From an archaeon (GTDB taxonomy: Archaea; Thermoproteota; Nitrososphaeria; Nitrososphaerales; Gagatemarchaeaceae): 64,000 nucleotides of DNA. The notes under the pieces were generated by a model. The model was not told where the DNA came from, ran no database searches, and saw only the letters and a program-made list of their open reading frames with translations. The position numbers and the translations under genes were made by a program. The stretch is taken from assembly GCA_021791695.1 (NCBI GenBank), contig JAJYWC010000007.1, positions 1-64,000 on the forward strand, written 5' to 3'. Shown piece by piece: positions 23,296-36,436 of this stretch (position 1 is the first letter of the stretch; each line of letters opens with the position of its first letter).

Positions 23296-23458
23296 CGCGT
23301 AACGATATATCGTGATATGTCTCTATAGGATAAGCCTTTAGGTACACGTTGCGGCCCGGCTCACCGGAACGGGACTCGACAGTTCTTCTCGTGCCGCCAA
23401 TCACGGCGGGAACAGCCCGGAGGAGAGAACCTTGGGCCCACCGGCTGAAGAGCAAAAA

Positions 23459-23552
23459 TGGACCGGGAGGGATTTGAACCCTCGACCTTGGGAGGCTCTT
23501 TGGCCTTCTCCCGCGTGCAAGGCGGGCGTTCGTACCGCTGAACTACCGGCCC
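23459..23552 (-). tRNA. tRNA-Ala(TGC) with ~21-nt insertion in variable region
   Basis: GGGCCGG/CCGGTCC acceptor incl. G3-U70, D-stem GTTC/GAAC, anticodon stem CCCGC-CTTGCAC-GCGGG, T-arm GAGGGTTCAAATCCCTC. Confidence 0.85.
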
Positions 23553-23601
23553 ATGGGCCGCCTCAAGTTTGTGATTGTAATAAGACTGTTGAAGCGACCA
23601 T

Positions 23602-24825: not shown

Positions 24826-24922
24826 GGGCCGGTAGCTCAGAACCTCGGCGAGAGGTGGGCAGCTTGGCTAGAGCACTCGACTGATAATCGAGAGGTCGAG
24901 GGTTCAAATCCCTTCCGGCCCA
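24826..24922 (+). tRNA. tRNA-Ile(GAT) with ~22-nt insertion in the D-loop
   Basis: GGGCCGG/CCGGCCC acceptor, D-stem GCTC/GAGC interrupted by extra 22 nt, anticodon loop CTGATAA, T-arm. Confidence 0.9.
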
Positions 24923-24973
24923 CCTAAATTATTAAGAGAATCCTTTATCTATTTGCCTTTCTAATGGTGAAAT

Positions 24974-26263
24974 ATGCCTGTTGGGAGCAAATACAAGCAT
25001 CTTCTCGATGACCAAGACGTCAGACGGTGGTACGAGAACCTCGAAGCCAAGTCGGTTATCACAGCGACCGTCTATCTCAGAACGCTTGGGCTATACTCCA
25101 ACCTTGCGAAGACTACGCCCAAGGGAATATTGGCAGAAGCACGATCCAAGAAGTTCAGGGACGAGTTTACCGACTTTATCAGGAGGATGGAGAAGGAAGG
25201 CAAAGCAGGCTCCTACATCGAGCGATTCAAGAAGGTGATTCTCTCTTGGACTTCGTACAACAATCTCGATGTTAAACTCAAAGTGAACATCAAGGGAAGC
25301 TCCGAGACCCCGACGATTGCCACCGAGAGAGTGCCCAGCAAGGACGAATTGTCGAAGATTCTGCGCATGGCATCACCAAGAGGCAGGATCTCGGTCGCGA
25401 TAATGGCGTTCAGCGGTGTAAGACCCGAGAGTCTGGGAGACTACCTTGGCACGGACGGGATAAGACTAGGAGACTTTAGCGAGGCGAAGGTGAGGAATGA
25501 CGGACTTGAGATTGAGAAAGTCCCTACCGTCCTTCTCGTGAGGAGAGCGCTCAGCAAAGCGAGACATCCCTACTTCACATTTGTGAGCAGCGAAGGCATC
25601 ACCTACATCCAAGAGCACCTCAAAGAACGGGTCAAGCAGGGTGAGAAACTTACGCCCGAGAGCCCGCTCCTTGCCTTCGACCCAAGGGGCATCAGGAAGA
25701 ACCAGTTCCTGAGGACGACCCTCGTAACGCGGGATGTCAAGGAGGCAATCCTCAAAGCCGGATTCACCTGGAGACCCTACGTCCTCAGAGCCTATTGCGA
25801 CACAAACATGATAGTGTCCGAGTCGAAGGGCTTCATCTCGCATCCCTATCTTCAGTTCCTGATGGGGCACAAGGGAGACATAGAAGCCAGGTATTCAACT
25901 AACAAGGGCAGGCTCCCTCCCACCATGATCGAAGAGATGAGGGAAGCTTACAAGAAATGCGACTCCCTTCTTTCCACCAAAGCTGAGTCAGCCACCGAGG
26001 AGCAAATCAAGAAGACCTTCAATGAACAATTTCTTCTCGTGGCCGGTTTCAAGAAGGAAGAGTTGGAGAAGATGAAACTCGATGAGATGACAAACGAAGA
26101 ACTTCAGAGCCTAGTCAGGCAAAGACTCATTGGGATGATGACCAACAATGGGTCGAGGCAGAAGGTCATTCCTCTTCAGGAAGTGAAATCATACATCGGC
26201 CAGGGCTTTGAATACGTCGCGTCTCTTCCGAACGACGAGGCGATAGTGAAGATTCCCTTCTGA
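24974..26263 (+). CDS. tyrosine recombinase/integrase
   Basis: GVRPESLGDYL (R), VLRAYCDT, LMGHKGDIEARYS (HxxR..Y region); downstream of tRNA-Ile. Confidence 0.8.
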   Translation: MPVGSKYKHLLDDQDVRRWYENLEAKSVITATVYLRTLGLYSNLAKTTPKGILAEARSKKFRDEFTDFIRRMEKEGKAGSYIERFKKVILSWTSYNNLDVKLKVNIKGSSETPTIATERVPSKDELSKILRMASPRGRISVAIMAFSGVRPESLGDYLGTDGIRLGDFSEAKVRNDGLEIEKVPTVLLVRRALSKARHPYFTFVSSEGITYIQEHLKERVKQGEKLTPESPLLAFDPRGIRKNQFLRTTLVTRDVKEAILKAGFTWRPYVLRAYCDTNMIVSESKGFISHPYLQFLMGHKGDIEARYSTNKGRLPPTMIEEMREAYKKCDSLLSTKAESATEEQIKKTFNEQFLLVAGFKKEELEKMKLDEMTNEELQSLVRQRLIGMMTNNGSRQKVIPLQEVKSYIGQGFEYVASLPNDEAIVKIPF

Positions 26264-26270
26264 CCGGTGA

Positions 26271-27110
26271 TTATTCCGAATAGATACCCTTACCAGACCA
26301 TTCCACCACTCTCCTCGATTTGTACCTGACAATCGGGACGATTTCGCTCTCTTCCAGATGCTTTCTCAAAAAGAGGATTGGGAACCATCCCCATCCTTCT
26401 GCGGAATAGACCGACAGGATGAGGACATAGACCACCTGACCATCGACTCCCCATGCCCTTCCTCCCTCCACGTCAGGTGTCCTAACGAAGGGGACAGGTT
26501 GCTGGCGGGCTGCCCTCTCGTGTGTATCCTCGAGCCGCAGCTTGACGTGTTCGATGACACCCGAATCAGTCTCCCTCCTGAGCGTGCTCTCGTAGTTGGA
26601 GATCTCTCTTGCCATAGGATTAGCTAGCTGCGCCAGTTCCACCCTCGCCGTCTCACCCTGATTCAAGTCGATGCAAGGAATGTCGTGAGGCTGCTGCCAG
26701 TATGCTTGAAACTCTGTTTCGCCGAGGGGAATCACAGCGACTTTAGCCTTGCAGTTTGTCGAAGACTCCTTAGCCACGACATCGGCCAGCAATTGAGTCT
26801 CACGACTGTATCGGCTCATACCGTGGAAGGACCTCCTCAGCCTGAATGTGAATCTGCTCGATTCAGGTCTCTCGAAGAATTCATCCAAGGCATCGTAAGG
26901 GCCATCACAAGGGACGTAGCATGTCTCGCCCGACGCAATCCCGATCTTGCTCAGCGTTCCCCACTTCTCCACCGCTTGACCTAGAGATCTGGACACCGCT
27001 GAGGCTTGGAATCCTTTTCGCGCGAGGTGCAGACCCAGCTCTCGCCTCCTGATTATCCCCTGTCTCACCCCCGCACTCAGCTCCTCGGCTATCGAACCCA
27101 TGACCCTCAA
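26271..27110 (-). CDS. element-encoded protein of unknown function
   Basis: 279 aa ORF convergent to integrase; no family recognised. Confidence 0.5.
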   Translation of the reverse strand: MRVMGSIAEELSAGVRQGIIRRRELGLHLARKGFQASAVSRSLGQAVEKWGTLSKIGIASGETCYVPCDGPYDALDEFFERPESSRFTFRLRRSFHGMSRYSRETQLLADVVAKESSTNCKAKVAVIPLGETEFQAYWQQPHDIPCIDLNQGETARVELAQLANPMAREISNYESTLRRETDSGVIEHVKLRLEDTHERAARQQPVPFVRTPDVEGGRAWGVDGQVVYVLILSVYSAEGWGWFPILFLRKHLEESEIVPIVRYKSRRVVEWSGKGIYSE

Positions 27111-27234
27111 GATTTGACAGGCGCTACGTCAGAATTAACGGTTTTGCTGCCTCATTTAGCGTCCTCAGTAGACATCTTGCGGGAATTCTCGACCGCCTTA
27201 TGAAAATCAAACCACTTTCCTGAATCATGCCAGA

Positions 27235-27420
27235 TTGACGACGACGAAGACCACAGTAGTTGACATTCGACCCCTCAAGACCCTCTCTACCAAGCTTCTT
27301 CCTCCAGAGTCGATGCTGAGGCGCGTCCTTTTGGGCGAAGCGGACGCCATGCCCGCTAGCGACTACGCGTCCAAGCTCGGGACGTGGCTTGCAATCCTTA
27401 GAGAGGAGACTACGAGATGA
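27235..27420 (+). CDS. small element protein
   Basis: 61 aa ORF overlapping start of ATPase gene (ATGA). Confidence 0.4.
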   Translation: MTTTKTTVVDIRPLKTLSTKLLPPESMLRRVLLGEADAMPASDYASKLGTWLAILREETTR

Positions 27421-29363
27421 CCTTCTGGAAGTCAAAGAAGAAGAGGCGACAGGAGGAGGAACGAGAGAAAGCGCTGAGGATACGTCAACAGGAGCTCGAA
27501 GAACGAAGGAAGAAGGAGGCGGCCGAGGAGAAGCGCTGGAAGGAACTGGAATCGAAGTATGGCGTTGACAGAGACGAGATCAAGTATCAGCTGGGCGATT
27601 CGCTCGAATGGATAAACCCCCGTTACCCCAAGTCGCAGAAGCTAACCCCCGGCCACGTCGGGGCAATCGGGCTCGTCAAGATCAACACCGGGAAAAACGC
27701 GGCCGAGGAACCATACGATCAGGATGAAGTCAGGTTCAAGTGGATAAGCGAAGTCAAATACATCGACGGCAAGGAGAACGGGAACGTCTTCACGAGCGGG
27801 GCGTCAGGCGCCGGAAAGAGCAGCCTTGAGCGGCTTCTCCTGCGGAAGATGGCAGCGCAGCAGAAGGTAATCTTCTCTTTCAAGGCGAACGACACCCATC
27901 TCGGAATCGGCTATCCAGTAGCGGACGTGAGCGAACTGCCACCTAATCCCTTCACTGATGTGGACGCTTTCGTAAGCGCCTTCGCGATAGCCTTTCCCAT
28001 CAGCTCGATTGGCATCACGGCCAGCCAGGTTCCCGCTCTCCTCCAGGAGCTGGCCCGTGGTTGCAGCTCCTCGAAGGACTTCGACCGCAGTCTTGAACGA
28101 CGAATTAGGGACACTACGGACAGGGTCCAACTCTCCGCCCTGTTCTTTATTCAGGAACAAATGAAATCCATCGAGCTTCGGAAGGGAGGAGGCGAAGAAG
28201 GTAGGGCAAACCTCATCAACGACGCGATTCACAGCGGCCTCGATATTGTCCTCGACTTCTCAAGATTGTCAGACTCTGCAAAGACGTTCTATGCCGAACT
28301 ATTGCTACGCGGGATATGGAACTGGATGCACTTGCCGACGGAAACCAGCAAAAAGAAACAAATCATCGTGTATGTGGATGAGGCTCACAGACTGACCAGA
28401 GGTACCTTCGAGAAGTATCACTCGATACTGAACGAAATGGCTAGGGAGATAAGGGCTAGAGGAGCGCTCTGGACATCGACGCAGAACTACAGCGACATCG
28501 AAGACGGCATCAGGAACCAGTTCGCGACGCAGTTCGTCTTCAACACGTCGTCAAAGGCAGACCTAGAAGCACTCAGGGCCATCGACCCGATGCTCTCGTG
28601 GCTTGTCTCTGGTCTACAGAAACATTACTTCATAGATGCGAAGGCGAGGTTCATTCATGAGGAGATCACCGTCTACACCTGCACTCCAGCCAAAGAGGAG
28701 AGAAGCGATGATTATGCGCATGCTCCGAAGCTAAGCAGGTCGCTCGTTTCCCCATCCGGACTAACGAAGGGCACTCTCGATGAGTACCGCAAGGAGGTCG
28801 AGGAATCGCTGGAAAACAACGGAGTAGTCTGGGTCTCCGGTCTCGCCGGCACTTTCAGCGAGAAGTATGGGACGGACAAGGATGAGGCGAAGCTCAGGAT
28901 CAAGGACATCCTTGAGAAGCTCGTGAACGGGGACGAGGTCCAGAGGATGAAGTGCGAGCTTGCAACGGGCGAGACCGTCGTCCTCTTCTTTCGCAAGTGC
29001 GAGGGTGAGAACGAGAGCCCTCTCCACAGGTGGATGGTTCAGCGAGCCATCGAGTGCTGCAATAGGGAAGCAGTGATTCACGTGGCTTCCTCTGGGGAGG
29101 CGCTGCCCGACATCGAGTTGAGGGAATGGTTTATCGAGTGCGAGACTGGACTAAAGAAAAAGACTGTCGACCTTGAGGAGCGAATAGGAGGATTGGGCTC
29201 GGTCAAGCCCTTCGCCATCGTAGTGCCAAACGAGGACGTGGAGCAGAGGTACGCTAGGTTCGCGTCCGATAGGGTCGTGTTGACGGCGCTCAAGGGTCTT
29301 TCAGAACGCATCAGGACGGAGCTGAGCGCAACTGAAGATAAGGGAGATCGAAAGCATGGCTGA
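27417..29363 (+). CDS. HerA/FtsK/VirB4-superfamily ATPase with coiled-coil N-terminus and possible C-terminal PD-(D/E)xK-like domain
   Basis: Walker A SGASGAGKSS, Walker B QIIVYVDEAHR, STQNYSDI; C-terminal LPDIELREWFIECETGLKKK. Confidence 0.75.
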   Translation: MTFWKSKKKRRQEEEREKALRIRQQELEERRKKEAAEEKRWKELESKYGVDRDEIKYQLGDSLEWINPRYPKSQKLTPGHVGAIGLVKINTGKNAAEEPYDQDEVRFKWISEVKYIDGKENGNVFTSGASGAGKSSLERLLLRKMAAQQKVIFSFKANDTHLGIGYPVADVSELPPNPFTDVDAFVSAFAIAFPISSIGITASQVPALLQELARGCSSSKDFDRSLERRIRDTTDRVQLSALFFIQEQMKSIELRKGGGEEGRANLINDAIHSGLDIVLDFSRLSDSAKTFYAELLLRGIWNWMHLPTETSKKKQIIVYVDEAHRLTRGTFEKYHSILNEMAREIRARGALWTSTQNYSDIEDGIRNQFATQFVFNTSSKADLEALRAIDPMLSWLVSGLQKHYFIDAKARFIHEEITVYTCTPAKEERSDDYAHAPKLSRSLVSPSGLTKGTLDEYRKEVEESLENNGVVWVSGLAGTFSEKYGTDKDEAKLRIKDILEKLVNGDEVQRMKCELATGETVVLFFRKCEGENESPLHRWMVQRAIECCNREAVIHVASSGEALPDIELREWFIECETGLKKKTVDLEERIGGLGSVKPFAIVVPNEDVEQRYARFASDRVVLTALKGLSERIRTELSATEDKGDRKHG

Positions 29364-29622
29364 TAATAGGCGAGCCGAGGAAAGTGTGTCAAAGACTCTA
29401 GAACTGCTGAAGTCGATGGCGCACTCCTCCGTAACCGATTACTTTGCGGATGGTACGCTAGAGGTAGCCGAGGCGCTCGCGGAGACGCGTAGTCTCTCGT
29501 TGGACGCATACTATGCCTACCAAAAGGGCTGCGAAGATGCGCTCAAGAAGGTCATTCAGTGGCTGGAGATGGACTTGGCCGGAAGGCGTTGCAACGTCTA
29601 TGGTGAGCCACTGGATTCTTGA
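29356..29622 (+). CDS. small element protein
   Basis: 88 aa ORF overlapping ATPase 3' end. Confidence 0.45.
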   Translation: MADNRRAEESVSKTLELLKSMAHSSVTDYFADGTLEVAEALAETRSLSLDAYYAYQKGCEDALKKVIQWLEMDLAGRRCNVYGEPLDS

Positions 29623-29653
29623 TGAAGCTCTCCACGAGATTACGATAAAGCTC

Positions 29654-29890
29654 GCCCATAGCAGCCGCCTCCCTTCGGGCTCGAACTTCGTTTCGTGGCA
29701 AATTCACCCCCTCGCTTCGCTCGCCGTGTCCGTCGCTTCGCTCCTCACGGCCTTCCGCTCACTAGCGTTCGCTCCCTCCCCCCTCTTTGCCCCTCCGCTC
29801 GTTCTTCGCCTCACCCCGCCTTGAAGCGGGGCCGCTCCACTCGCTCCTCCGAAAGGAGCTCGTTTCGCGGGGGTGTCGGCTGCTATGGGC
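29654..29890. repeat. structured non-coding block bounded by 14-bp perfect inverted repeat
   Basis: GCCCATAGCAGCCG (29654-29667) vs CGGCTGCTATGGGC (29877-29890); internal hairpins and repeated TCGCTTCGCTC. Confidence 0.65.
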
Positions 29891-30178
29891 TCGCATAAGA
29901 GGGGGAGGGAAAGAAGGAAGAACTGAGCTCCCTGTGCATAACAAGGCTGTATTCGAAACATACTTTAGTTAGGCCATTTCGTGACAACCATTTCGAAGGT
30001 CGCAAATGAAACGCGGTGGTGACTCTTCCCTCTCCTTGTAGTGGAATCATGACAATAAGAATTCATGCCATCACGGCTGCGAGCAATGTGTCTTCTTTTG
30101 GCGAACCAGAATCTAATCGGGTCCTTTTATGAGGTCCAGTGGTGCAATCGTCGTCAATGAGGTCCCTGCACTTCATCC

Positions 30179-31102
30179 CTATCTTCTGCGCTGCAGAATT
30201 GCGACGCACATTGCTATCACCATGATTAACGCCACGACTGCAAGCACTCCAAAGTAAACCGGGTTCAAGCTCGATGCTGAAGGGCTCGATTGATTAGCTG
30301 TACTAGTGGAAGTTTGAGATAAGGAAGACGAAGGAGATGACATATTAGATGTCGAACTGAGAGTTGTGCCCGGCGTACTTGTGCTCGTTCCGCTGCTACT
30401 AGATGTTGCCGTCGCTTGTGACACGGTGAAGTGAAGGAGCAGAAACTGGCTCCACTCGTCCTCCCCGACTACGGTGTAGGTGCCCGGGGGAAAGGTGATG
30501 GGCGCTGCCGAAATCGACGTACCAGCCCCGCCCGTCCAATACCCTGCTGTAGATTGTCCAACGGATTCGTTTCCAAGAGGAGGGAAAGTCGTGGGGACTG
30601 TGCTCTCTGTACAGGCAAACTGCACGCTGGTATTGTACAATGGAAGAGGCGTCGCCGTTTGAAGATCTTCGAGGCTAAGATTACCGCTGAACATTCCGAA
30701 GGCTAATGATGCCCCGAATGCGCAGGCGTCAGAGCCCGACAGTTCTTCAAGCGAATAGCCCCAACGGTCGGCGTAGGGAACGATGTTTGTGGTGTTGCGG
30801 AGGTTCACAGCAGTGAGTCTTATCGACAAGTTTCCAGCAGGGGAGGATACGGTAGAAAGATTCAGGACAAGACGGAGACCGAGCGACGAATTGGATGTTG
30901 AAGTGGATGTGACTGGGACTTGGATTAGGTGTTCAGGCGATGTTGTTGTCGTGGCGTTCGTGCTTCCGAAGGAGAGTTGATCGAACCCCGCCGCATCGGT
31001 AATGCTGCTGGCATGAGCTGTTGGGACGGTATTAACCATGAGAACGGAGAATACTCCAAGCAACAATATCAAAGCAATTCGGCCACTCATTCCGGAATGC
31101 AT
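30179..31102 (-). CDS. exported Ser/Thr-rich protein with C-terminal TM anchor
   Basis: Signal peptide MHSGMSGRIALILLLGVFSVLMVNTVPTAHA, S/T-rich stalk, terminal TM + RRR. Confidence 0.65.
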   Translation of the reverse strand: MHSGMSGRIALILLLGVFSVLMVNTVPTAHASSITDAAGFDQLSFGSTNATTTTSPEHLIQVPVTSTSTSNSSLGLRLVLNLSTVSSPAGNLSIRLTAVNLRNTTNIVPYADRWGYSLEELSGSDACAFGASLAFGMFSGNLSLEDLQTATPLPLYNTSVQFACTESTVPTTFPPLGNESVGQSTAGYWTGGAGTSISAAPITFPPGTYTVVGEDEWSQFLLLHFTVSQATATSSSSGTSTSTPGTTLSSTSNMSSPSSSLSQTSTSTANQSSPSASSLNPVYFGVLAVVALIMVIAMCVAILQRRR

Positions 31103-31627
31103 TTGGAAGGATGAGGAATCAGCAAATTCGGCGATGGCAGGCATATTCGGTAAGTGTTGAGCAACCAGAATTTAGTCTGCGGGGTAAATTCTTATCTAGG
31201 AAAATTAGCGACAATCAAGACCTGCCTGCTTCGTTAGCAACATGTAATTCCGCACTCATTAGGAAAGCTCGGCATTAGACAATCCGCTTAGAGTCACTCG
31301 ATACTTTGGCGGGAGCGCCTTCAGCACCAAGCTTTCCGCCAGCCTAGCCTAGTCAGTGTGTAGCGTGCACGCCGGTAACAACTCGGAATCAAGATTTTTC
31401 AACTTTCAAGATTCCAGCCAAAGGACGGGTTGAGGTTAGTGCATACTTGACCCTGGCGCTGGACGTATCCGCGTCAGATGTTGGCACCGAGGTCTTGCAC
31501 CCCCTTTTGGCGAGTCTGTATGGTTAGAACCGGACTAAATTGAAGAGGGGTTCCGTAATCAGAATATGCAAGAATCAGGCATTCGGTTTAAGTGCAGGGC
31601 TTCCGCCTCACCAAATAGGCTGTTTGT

Positions 31628-32392
31628 TTGACGATCAGGTTCCCGCGGAAATTGGCCATTCGACGTCTCGCAAAGCGCGCGGGGATTTCTCTCGCTATAA
31701 TTCTTGTTTTGGTGGTAATTGCCGGGTCTGTTGGAACAGGCTTGTTCTTTTTCGCTTCTACTCCTCACAACTCCGCTACAAACCAATTGGGGTCGCCGGA
31801 CGCGGTATCCACAAACGCGGTATCGTCCAGTGCTTCGAGTAGTAGCTCAACCCCCGCATTGGTGTCACCTGGACAGCCACAGACTGTCTTTGGGTTCGTT
31901 GTGAACTCCACCTCAGATACGGTCGCTTCATTCCCGAATGATACGATGATTTGGACCAACCATGTTCTTTCAAGCTCCTCATACGTTGCTGGTATAACCA
32001 CTTCAATAGTGACAACTCCCTCAAGCTCCAAATCAAACGTAATTATCGCGGCCTACATCAACGGAAACTTGGTAGGCGAAGAAAAATACGAGATTGGACC
32101 TCCTGTGTCTCCCAGCAGTAACCCTAGCTATACATTGCCATCGAATTTCACTCAGGCTAACGAGGTAACCGTGCAGGTAGGTTCGACGATACAATCGGGA
32201 TCGACGATTTCAGTAGCAATATGGTGCAGTTGTTCACCCACTATTCATGTTGATAGCAATGACCCTACCGCGCGTGGAACTTACGAATATGCCCTTCCTT
32301 CTACAACTACATCTTTGCCTCAAACATTGCCATCGTCCGCGCAGTCAGCGTCGTCGGCACCAGACTTCTGGGCCTTTAGTCAGGGGCAATAA
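31628..32392 (+). CDS. membrane-anchored exported protein
   Basis: N-terminal TM ISLAIILVLVVIAGSVGTGLFFFAS, S/T-rich extracellular domain. Confidence 0.6.
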   Translation: MTIRFPRKLAIRRLAKRAGISLAIILVLVVIAGSVGTGLFFFASTPHNSATNQLGSPDAVSTNAVSSSASSSSSTPALVSPGQPQTVFGFVVNSTSDTVASFPNDTMIWTNHVLSSSSYVAGITTSIVTTPSSSKSNVIIAAYINGNLVGEEKYEIGPPVSPSSNPSYTLPSNFTQANEVTVQVGSTIQSGSTISVAIWCSCSPTIHVDSNDPTARGTYEYALPSTTTSLPQTLPSSAQSASSAPDFWAFSQGQ

Positions 32393-32405
32393 TGGTGACT
32401 AAGAC

Positions 32406-33527
32406 GTGGAACTAATGATGCTAAGATCAGCCAGAAATGGAAACAGGCTGGCTATTCTGTCGCTGTTCGCGTTGCTGGCATTGATGTTGATGAGCTCTAC
32501 CGTGCGACCTGTTCTTGCCTATTCGGGAGGGGAAGGTAACAGCAACAGTTGGGTAAGCACATCATCCACGGAGTGCCAGAATGGCAATTACTCTCCTGCT
32601 GTGTTAGGCATGGCCTGGGACACCGGCACACCAGTGCTGAGTTCAGATGATAATCAAGGCGTGACCGGTGAATGGTCCTGGCAGACCAATGTTCAGACAG
32701 AGCAGAAACTAACGAGTAGCGGTAATGAAGCTGGATACCAGTACGTTCAGTATGTGCAGAACTACGAACTGACTGACCCATGGCTTGAAGTCTTGCTGCC
32801 ACCCCCGACTAACTATCAGATGGAGGGCGGGCAAACTTCTTGGACAGCTTATAATACCTACTACGTAGGTGGCCCCAGCGCAAGCCTTAATCTGGAGGTA
32901 GAAGCCGATGCTACGTGGAGCAATGGCGTTATCACAGCAGTAACCTATTATCTGTGGGATAATGGAGTCCTTCAAAGCCATTCGATATCCGTCAGTATCC
33001 CGGCCGGATACCAGGCCACTCCCGTCGCGTATCAGAATGTCCTAGTCTCTGTCGGAACTAGCGGCGGTAAGATCTATAGTCCAGTTGCGTTCACGGGAGG
33101 CACTGGCGATTTCTACACTTTTGGCAATTCGCAATATAAGAACACCGCTTGTGTAAGCTGGGGAACCGGTGAGACATCGAACATGGGCTACTACGCATGG
33201 CCAGGATCTTGTAGCAATTGTTACCAAGATTACACCGTAGCAAATGAATACCCAAGTATTGCTGTTCAGTCCGTCGACCAGAATGGCAATCTAATCTATG
33301 GGTACTACACGCAGTTGGATACTACGGGTTACGGATATATTGCTTCTGGATACACGACCTACACGTATAGCGACACGTATGTTACCAACGGCACCTCATA
33401 CTATCTTTACGCGGATAGTTATGGCAGCTGTACATTCAATCACTGGTCGGATGGTAGCGCTAGTGTTCCCAGATTGGTTACGCCCAGTGACGAGATGAGA
33501 CTAACCGCAGTATATGATTGCACTTAG
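32406..33527 (+). CDS. exported surface protein
   Basis: Signal peptide LAILSLFALLALMLMSSTVRPVLA; C-terminal domain CTFNHWSDGSASVPRLVTPSDEMRLTAVYDCT. Confidence 0.65.
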   Translation: MELMMLRSARNGNRLAILSLFALLALMLMSSTVRPVLAYSGGEGNSNSWVSTSSTECQNGNYSPAVLGMAWDTGTPVLSSDDNQGVTGEWSWQTNVQTEQKLTSSGNEAGYQYVQYVQNYELTDPWLEVLLPPPTNYQMEGGQTSWTAYNTYYVGGPSASLNLEVEADATWSNGVITAVTYYLWDNGVLQSHSISVSIPAGYQATPVAYQNVLVSVGTSGGKIYSPVAFTGGTGDFYTFGNSQYKNTACVSWGTGETSNMGYYAWPGSCSNCYQDYTVANEYPSIAVQSVDQNGNLIYGYYTQLDTTGYGYIASGYTTYTYSDTYVTNGTSYYLYADSYGSCTFNHWSDGSASVPRLVTPSDEMRLTAVYDCT

Positions 33528-33583
33528 TCGCCCAAAAATCGGTTAACAATTCGAGCGTAGGATTCGCTTAAATCATTAACTGC

Positions 33584-33599
33584 ATCCCTTCCGGCCCAC
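33584..33599 (+). repeat. attR-like 16-bp copy of tRNA-Ile 3' end
   Basis: ATCCCTTCCGGCCCAC identical to 24908-24923. Confidence 0.8.
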
Positions 33600-34539: not shown

Positions 34540-34885
34540 GGTAGTCGCAGGACAACCCCCGCCCGAACGAGTGGTCTTTTTATTCCGGATTAGAACAAAG
34601 AGAGACTACATTGGAACCGGGAACGAATGAAGAATCTCGGTATCGAACCCCGAGGAGTCCGGGTACCGTCGGACCCGCAGTTGAGACGCCAAAAATGGTA
34701 TCGCATTAGTTTTGAGTCGCGTGAGTCCATCGTTGCGTTGGCTGGTCCAGAGCGTGAGGTCGCCGAGATTTGAGCATGGCATACCGCGCGGAAGTTCTCA
34801 CTAAGAGTTCAATTCCCATGAAGAAGGGCAAAACTGCCTTCGAAAGGCTCAAATTACATGCTGAATGTGGCATGCTAGATGTAGA

Positions 34886-35122
34886 ATGAAAGTGGTACAG
34901 ACCACCCTGACAGAGGAGGAACACAAGCTCTTGGAAGAGTATGCCAGAAGGAAGTCTAAGAGTATCAAAGAAGTTGTGAGGGAGGCGGTGAGAAACGTGG
35001 TCGAGGGCAGAGTGGTCCCAGACGACCCCGTCTTCTCCATGCCACCGGCATCAAAGAAAACTGGGAAGAAGGATAATGGCTCGGTCGAGCATGACCGACA
35101 TCTCTACGGTGTGACCTCGTGA
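34886..35122 (+). CDS. VapB-like antitoxin
   Basis: MKVVQTTLTEEEHKLLEEYARRKSKSIKEVVREAVRN; overlaps PIN gene. Confidence 0.7.
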   Translation: MKVVQTTLTEEEHKLLEEYARRKSKSIKEVVREAVRNVVEGRVVPDDPVFSMPPASKKTGKKDNGSVEHDRHLYGVTS

Positions 35123-35523
35123 TCTTCGTCGACACCAGTGCGTGGTACGCGGCAGAGGTGGAGGACGATGTCAATCATGAGGTTGCTCGCAAGTTCCTGG
35201 GTCAGGTTTCCAAAGGCACTCACGGCGTTCCTTTGACCACTGATTATATCCTCGACGAAGCGATGACGCTGCTGAGGTCCAGAAGAAATCTCGGAGCCGC
35301 AACATCATTCGCTCGCAAGATCCGATCGAGCAACAGCGTCAGGATAGCCTGGGTCGACGAAAGTTTGTTCGAGAAGGGCCTTGAGATATTCTCAAAATCA
35401 GAACGAAGAACCTGGAGTTTCACCGACTGCACCAGCTTTGCCCTGATGAGGCAACTTTCAGTTTCCGAGGCCTTTGCATTCGACAGGCACTTCAGGGAGG
35501 CCGGGTTCACAGTTTTTCCGTAA
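35119..35523 (+). CDS. VapC-like PIN domain toxin
   Basis: MIFVDTSAWYAAEVEDD...TTDYILDEAMTLL...SFTDCTSFALM. Confidence 0.85.
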   Translation: MIFVDTSAWYAAEVEDDVNHEVARKFLGQVSKGTHGVPLTTDYILDEAMTLLRSRRNLGAATSFARKIRSSNSVRIAWVDESLFEKGLEIFSKSERRTWSFTDCTSFALMRQLSVSEAFAFDRHFREAGFTVFP

Positions 35524-36099: not shown

Positions 36100-36410
36100 C
36101 CGCCCATTTCGCCGCTTCTATCTGCGTCTTCGCTGCGATTCCCGTCGGGCCCGCCTCCGTTCGAGTTCGAGTCCCTTGTCCCCCTCGCGCTTTCACGACT
36201 CGCTTGAGGCATACCATTACTCATGCTGCTGCGAATATAAGCGCCAATCCGGCGAGAGTCTTAAGATAGCAGTAGGAGGATTATTCAGACTGGCGAGCGC
36301 GAAGGCGGATTCAGATATCTAGCCGTTTGATAACAATTAAGGGTGATGTTGCCTGGTACGGATCAGGGCATCAAGCCACGTATGTGTGCGTGCCAGCGAA
36401 GCTGGGGGTT

Positions 36411-36436
36411 GAGGGTTCAAATCCCTCCGGGTCCGC
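36411..36436 (+). other. isolated tRNA 3' fragment (T-arm plus acceptor-like)
   Basis: GAGGGTTCAAATCCCTC (same 17 nt as T-arm of tRNA-Ala at 23459) followed by CGGGTCCGC; no 5' half seen. Confidence 0.5.

Follow-up and report, generated by a model that had tools for sequence, protein, structure and literature searches.

A tRNA-Ile-integrated element with a HerA-type ATPase represents a family of small archaeal elements with common ends, a conserved structured block and exchangeable surface-protein cargo

Positions 24,908 to 33,599 of the 64-kb stretch analyzed here (hereafter the window; contig JAJYWC010000007.1 from an archaeon of the Gagatemarchaeaceae) are occupied by an element integrated in a tRNA-Ile gene, which belongs to a previously unremarked family possessing one integrase, inverted arms at the ends and a conserved folded block, in which surface-protein genes are shuffled between related archaea. 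The recombinases of this family target tRNA-Ile or other tRNA genes at their 3′ end, where they insert at a core of approximately 16 bp bounded by inverted arms and restore the tRNA. A fixed module composed of the integrase, a 61-aa protein and, in the window, a HerA-type ATPase ends in the folded block, and an exchangeable cargo of exported proteins follows. We consider, at a probability of roughly 50%, that the window copy is an integrative, plasmid-like element whose HerA-type pump moves DNA between cells, pump-less siblings riding along. The initial annotation, made from the window sequence, had described the integrated element itself; its membership in a family and the conservation of the non-coding block across the members are what the comparison has added.

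The borders were defined by the 16-nt core ATCCCTTCCGGCCCAC, present as attL at 24908-24923 (+), the 3′ end of tRNA-Ile(GAT), and as attR at 33584-33599 (+), where a conserved ATTAACTGC stands just before it. As initially claimed, the two copies are exact. No other exists in the window, in which 6e-5 occurrences would be expected by chance at the window base composition. The cores are flanked by inverted 12-bp arms, namely a left integrase-arm site TTAAGAGAATCC at 24932-24943 (-), an inverted copy of the right arm that is kept beside attL in L051, L054, L059, and L063, and a right integrase-arm site GGATTCGCTTAA at 33560-33571 (+). These were the only two matches in 64 kb when up to one mismatch was allowed, and mononucleotide shuffles gave none. 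The element thus delimited is 8,676 bp long, with a G+C content of 52.3% as against 61.4% in the left and 56.9% in the right flank. No internal core or arm was detected, and two tandem elements were rejected as a description of the window copy on that ground. The target tRNA-Ile(GAT) itself (24826-24922, +) carries an insert of about 22 nt in its D-arm (about 24841-24862), without which the remaining 75 nt fold into a cloverleaf; the start called by ARAGORN, 24853, is therefore too late. The insert appears to be a non-canonical, variable tRNA intron, a different one being present in L059 and none in L058.

Directly inside the left arm lies the gene for a tyrosine recombinase of 429 aa (24974-26263, +), which retains the catalytic residues R150, K195, R272, H299, and Y307, all invariant across its family. 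Its open reading frame (ORF) is intact, in line with the initial annotation, and together with the direct repeat of the tRNA 3′ end this corresponds to the pNOB8-like arrangement, in which the integrase is intact and the attachment site attP lies outside the gene. Sites free of the element were found in the same genus: in three genomes (G006, G008, and G009), tRNA-Ile stands beside the same SDR gene, in most of them with tRNA-Ala, and no element is present. Neither arm nor integrase follows the tRNA in G006 and G008, while the contig of G009 ends at the tRNA. A perfect two-sided empty site was encountered in none of the three, and only the left side is collinear because the right flank is rearranged among them. 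The search for empty tRNA-Ile sites in relatives, proposed at the outset, thus returned same-genus genomes in which the upstream genes are shared and the element is missing, rather than the chromosomal synteny that would have spoken against integration; integration in tRNA-Ile is upheld by the core repeat, the inverted arms, the siblings and these sites.

Siblings were sought in 46 genomes of the same family, many of whose assemblies are incomplete, and the integrase matched in 29 of them. The nearest of these, at 75-86% identity with the window copy, lie directly 3′ of tRNA genes or tRNA-like ends, at tRNA-Ile in G001, G002, and G035, at tRNA-Arg in G002, and elsewhere in the others. Copies from other genera show 84-86% identity with the window integrase, and the second copy in the same genome as the window is 92% identical to that of G022. 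For the Mrp ATPase, used as a vertical marker, the identity to the same genomes is only 57-66%; this disparity is indicative of horizontal spread. Elements delimited by cores measured 3.09 kb (L147), 3.66 kb (L059), 3.77 kb (L136), and 4.85 kb (L141), and the genome of the window itself contains a tandem of 3.7 and 4.3 kb (L051), one member of which carries a transposase and has lost its integrase. These 3-5 kb siblings at tRNA genes encode only the integrase, the structured block of about 260 nt and exported proteins, and intact copies follow the order tRNA, core, arm, integrase, block, exported protein genes, arm and core. A core preceded by C (C-ATCCC), the signature of an element-derived end, was detected at more than 20 places in the family, the reversed control pattern being nearly absent, and most of the 19 distinct right ends with full flank read GGATTCGCTTAA-N-ATTAACTGC followed by the core. 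Solo right ends (C-ATCCCTTCCGGCCCA, most with the arm) unaccompanied by an integrase occur in L135 of the same genome as the window and in L143, L146, L149, and L151, and look like relics of departed or decayed elements.

A further hallmark of this integrase family is the 61-aa protein (27235-27420, +), for which 22 matches were obtained in 14 of the 46 genomes, most of them within 6 kb of an integrase match. Two integrase elements (L058, 11502-12938; L064, 10522-11977) were observed to combine the 61-aa protein and a protein with two transmembrane (TM) segments with other genes in the position of the ATPase, so that the pump slot itself may be exchangeable.

The cargo was evaluated over nine delimited elements by counting mechanically called ORFs of at least 120 aa and predicting export with a simple hydropathy rule. 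An N-terminal export or anchor segment was predicted in 19 of 25 cargo ORFs as against 18 of 97 flank ORFs (Fisher p=1e-7), the non-exported remainder of the cargo including the ATPase, the 279-aa protein described below and a transposase. The exchange of cargo was most directly observed between L141 (G022) and L147 (G037), whose flanks, insertion site, integrase and block are 95-99% identical and whose cargo is wholly different; the homology is lost from the 3′ border of the block onward and returns about 25 bp before the right core. The cargo has thus been replaced between the block and the right end. Of the alternatives initially offered, a cargo island therefore holds for the surface genes, which are exchanged at a fixed site and enriched in exported proteins.

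In the window, the cargo consists of three predicted exported proteins, which were open as listed initially, as was the rest of the gene list. The first (30179-31144, -; 321 aa) has a Ser/Thr-rich stalk and a C-terminal membrane anchor, the second (31628-32392, +) is exported or anchored at its N-terminus, and the third (32406-33527, +) has a C-terminal domain in common with a chromosomal surface protein in L059. Relatives of the 321-aa protein were found in 20 of the 46 genomes, the nearest (57-64%) being in G008 of the same genus. As the stretch analyzed around that nearest relative contained neither arms nor integrase, this member of a host surface-protein family was probably captured from a host.

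The block (29647-29913, on the + strand like the integrase and ATPase genes) recurs, at 70-82% identity, directly 3′ of the integrase stop in the small elements; in the window and L056, it instead follows the final gene of the ATPase operon. In intact copies, it is never more than 30 nt away from the stop codon that closes the integrase/ATPase operon. Sixteen copies yielded a long closing helix with inner helices, in which 14 of the 32 pairs have changed on both sides, a number attained by 0 of 500 shuffles and compared with 2-6 in slid structures. Wobble pairs comprised 48 G-U as against 7 A-C cells; with two mostly U-G pairs set aside, the counts were 20 and 7 (p=0.02). Because such wobbles are strand-specific, an RNA of the integrase strand is favored over a double-stranded DNA feature. 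The single-sequence fold of the window block was not unusual (z -1.7), so that it is the covariation that carries the case for structure. A known RNA family was set aside, as Rfam gave no match at either threshold, and a coding sequence was rejected on the grounds that no frame is open in all copies and that, in the window copy, each of the six frames is interrupted by stops. The structured non-coding block initially noticed was thus revealed to be a conserved family with strong covariation on the integrase strand; to judge from the aligned copies, it is probably a structured RNA of the integrase/ATPase strand, and it is the part of the element most likely to be new.

A covariance model located the block in 18 of the 46 genomes and, outside the family in a sample of the order, in G117 only, a copy that had first been found by a profile from which it was absent. 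The G117 block and a relative of the ATPase lie 1.8 kb apart, at a locus adjoining tRNA-Ile with a very different integrase, and in L056 the block likewise accompanies the ATPase with a different integrase; from these contexts, the block is associated with both the ATPase and the integrase. In L125, L126, and L154, from three genomes that belong to another genus, near-identical blocks without an integrase nearby share the same flanking genes, including one for an exported 424-aa protein, and are possibly domesticated. An unusual inverted arrangement was seen at 7.8-8.3 kb in L128 and L130, where two short inverted block fragments come after a full block.

The HerA/VirB4-like ATPase (27417-29363, +) comprises a coiled coil (residues 2-48), the ATPase domain (about 113-425), a winged helix (about 454-526) and a nuclease-like alpha/beta domain (about 535-643). 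Its Pfam matches, AAA_10 and HerA_C, were below cut-off, and the VirB4/TraC models of NCBIfam matched at 2e-6 to 2e-8. A profile of 11 relatives hit VirB4 (4ag5; 1.5e-9), Nezha HerA (9e-8), and STIV B204 (2.5e-6), and the predicted structure (mean confidence, pLDDT, 78) matched HerA and VirB4 folds, all in good agreement with the initial assignment to the HerA/VirB4 type. The order of elements in the C-terminal domain is that of PD-(D/E)xK nucleases, D565 is invariant, and the next motif reads D-x-K in two distant relatives (L067 and L069). Divergent to the ATPase gene lies that for a 279-aa protein (26271-27110, -) without family match, which is placed like the winged helix-turn-helix (wHTH) regulators of sibling elements and may function similarly, and the ATPase stop is overlapped by the gene for an 88-aa protein (29356-29622, +), also without family match.

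Relatives of the ATPase were found in Ferroplasma acidarmanus and other Thermoplasmata, Micrarchaeota, and Nanoarchaeota. A full-length homologue is encoded by the circular 7,646-bp plasmid pPO1 of Picrophilus oshimae, where it was annotated as FtsK-related and its transcript start was mapped (PMC3177234). Two Nitrosopumilaceae-like relatives (L068 and L069) adjoin a protein with 5-6 TM segments. Those of L156 (F. acidarmanus), L158, and L164 have as neighbors proteins of 712-1218 aa that bear a membrane segment at either end, as well as small 2-TM proteins; two of these three ATPases have two N-terminal membrane helices, and no tRNA was found in the stretch analyzed around them.

Tyrosine recombinases excise circles between sites such as those described above, and HerA-family rings translocate double-stranded DNA. 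In the mechanism that we propose, the recombinase would excise the element as a circle, and the ATPase, which combines its motor with a DNA-binding winged helix and a nuclease-like domain, would form a ring pumping DNA to another cell, as TdtA does for the Thermus element ICEth1. The block may act in cis as an RNA, either controlling the operon or marking the DNA. The 3-5 kb siblings, having only integrase, block and cargo, could move with the help of pump-carrying members, and the cargo would change via tandem insertion and recombination. Transfer driven by the ATPase is suggested by analogy with TdtA; mobilization of the ATPase-less elements by those carrying the ATPase is the more tentative of the two. 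The plasmid nature, one of the options in the initial annotation, is favored since the full-length relative of the ATPase resides on a natural plasmid.

Several observations weigh against transfer by such a pump. The nuclease motif of the window ATPase is non-canonical (E-x-E instead of D/E-x-K), and neither Pfam, a PDB profile search nor Foldseek with the C-terminal domain alone gave a confident nuclease match, the last of which makes nuclease activity uncertain; the PD-(D/E)xK nature of the domain, argued from topology and from the D-x-K of the two distant relatives, is accordingly an uncertain assignment. Relaxase, VirD4, VirB6 and pilin genes are absent from the element. The link between helper and satellite draws on a weak overlap of genomes, five of the six with the ATPase also having the block as against 18 of 46 overall (p=0.03), which is no more than suggestive. 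HerA-type ATPases also serve defense, and some relatives adjoin methyltransferase, Vsr or restriction genes; such genes are carried by ICEth1 and pPO1 too, and as they fit that precedent and a defense role alike, they do not decide the matter.

The defense role leads to a different account of the same genes, in which a site-specifically integrating island carries an anti-virus protein (HerA with nuclease), the surface proteins are further cargo, and movement is left to host processes or to other elements. The best PADLOC match of the ATPase was mad8 (7e-10), with HerA matching weakly, in a scan that covered the ATPase alone; its fold resembles those in the SIR2-HerA and DUF4297-HerA complexes, and the relatives in L053, L159, L163, and pPO1 have C5-methyltransferase, Vsr, GmrSD-like or restriction genes as neighbors. 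We nevertheless regard this account as the less likely one, for no methyltransferase or other defense partner was seen in the element, and none of its eight ORFs matched partners of MADS or HerA-effector systems (other mad genes, SIR2, DUF4297, NurA) in Pfam or NCBIfam. Moreover, the relatives in Ferroplasma and other Thermoplasmata with two N-terminal membrane helices adjoin large membrane-anchored surface proteins, and one relative is among the six genes of a small plasmid. A reduced provirus, likewise considered in the initial annotation, would use the ATPase to package DNA and the exported proteins as spikes of a membrane vesicle-like, pleolipovirus-like virion. The profile match to the STIV B204 packaging ATPase, fold matches to viral HerA/FtsK-type proteins such as the Haloarcula virus PH1 ATPase, and the anchoring of the exported proteins are compatible with it. 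Searches of PHROGs, phage records, IMG/VR (with ATPase, integrase and block patterns) and BFVD folds returned nothing specific for a viral origin, however: there was no PHROG structural match and no relative in phage records or viral contigs, and no capsid, portal, terminase or virus-family hallmark, the match to phrog_2666 spanning the ATPase core only. The exported proteins are furthermore swapped between elements rather than conserved as virion proteins are, and one is of a host surface-protein family, all of which renders a provirus improbable.

It is possible, although we lean away from it, that the block is a mere 3′ untranslated structure or terminator, that the small elements are decayed, immobile relics, and that the cargo differences arose by ordinary homologous recombination. 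The invariable position of the block within 30 nt of the operon stop and the existence of solo right ends and integrase (INT) fragments agree with this; yet the integrases of the small elements are intact and 84-92% identical across genera, the block persists alongside unrelated integrases in L056 and L065, and a fold of about 260 nt with a closing helix and covariation exceeds the needs of a terminator. At the opposite extreme, the block would be a new class of structured RNA, or a folded single-stranded DNA site, needed by the HerA-type pump, the 3-5 kb elements archaeal satellites mobilized in trans by pump-carrying helpers, and the surface proteins reshuffled via tRNA-borne cassettes in the absence of a virus or type IV secretion system (T4SS); we put this forward as a distinctly speculative extension. 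Finally, a coincidental repeat in ordinary chromosome could appeal to the core being just 16 nt, but the chance expectation, the arms, the empty sites and the many siblings with the same ends leave it practically no credence, siblings and arms having already refuted it.

Among the known systems closest to the window element is ICEth1 of Thermus thermophilus, which is of a similar size class (14.9 kb), occupies a tRNA-Ile site, and has its own tyrosine recombinase and an orphan HerA-type ATPase with nuclease function without T4SS genes; its TdtA, a membrane-bound HerA-like hexamer encoded with nuclease and restriction-modification genes, is required for DNA donation in transjugation (PMC5365140) and offers the best parallel for the transfer proposed here. 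ICEth1 differs in its separate NurA and restriction-modification genes, its 47-bp att repeats and the lack of any reported conserved block (PMC5365140), whereas the window element has a fused nuclease-like C-terminal domain in place of a separate NurA-like gene, surface-protein cargo, and pump-less siblings with common ends and block. It thus works like ICEth1 in outline, in so far as transfer may be assumed here, and is not a member, having no NurA gene and no restriction system. The Ced/Ted DNA import systems share a HerA/VirB4-like motor (CedB, TedB; PMC9905601), and some ATPase relatives adjoin a 5-6-TM protein, but the element has no CedA/VirB6-like channel or CedA1-like pilin. The 7.6-kb pPO1 shares the full-length ATPase including winged helix and C-terminal domain; unlike the window element, it carries Cdc6, a methyltransferase and a putative restriction enzyme, together with a recombinase assigned in its annotation to the resolvase/invertase family, and neither a tRNA integrase nor exported cargo is annotated on it. 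Tycheposons and phage satellites are small bacterial tRNA-integrating cargo elements that need helpers; in contrast to these, no capsid or phage link was found for the window element.

By gene content, the window element falls among the cryptic integrated elements as understood by Krupovic et al. (2019), and is neither a T4SS-type integrative and conjugative element (ICE) nor a provirus. Thaumarchaeal T4SS-type ICEs are defined by VirB4 with VirD4, VirB6/TadC, TFIIB and ParB genes (PMC6563490), a set of which the element has one motor only, no other gene matching. The cryptic elements share the tRNA-targeting recombinase, the short att repeats and the lack of virus or conjugation hallmarks, and the smallest described, 2.6 kb, consists of integrase, wHTH and two hypothetical genes (PMC6563490); they form a residual category without signature genes, whereas here a family is definable by common ends, block and a HerA variant. 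No description of the conserved block, the common ends or the swap of surface-protein cargo was found in the literature searched. Most small thaumarchaeal integrated elements have been filed as cryptic because nothing in them was recognized, and the ends, the integrase and the folded block, together with one copy bearing a plausible DNA pump, now provide a handle for searching. The family also offers a testable route for archaeal gene exchange that needs neither T4SS nor virus. It further provides a means of varying surface proteins, which is relevant to how uncultivated archaea escape viruses and make cell contact.

Outside the element, tRNA-Ala(TGC) (23458-23553) is 96 nt long, which suggests an intron or insert, and the tRNAs of several relatives are equally long. 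A T-arm-like stretch (GAGGGTTCAAATCCCT) within 36330-36436, without an ARAGORN call, has matches of about 47 bp at 87-89% in L129, L142, and L150, and may be an intron-rich tRNA or a tRNA relic. Just beyond the right border, a PIN-domain-like ORF (35119-35523) follows a small ORF (34865-35122), a pair that is toxin-antitoxin-like as far as its sequence goes.

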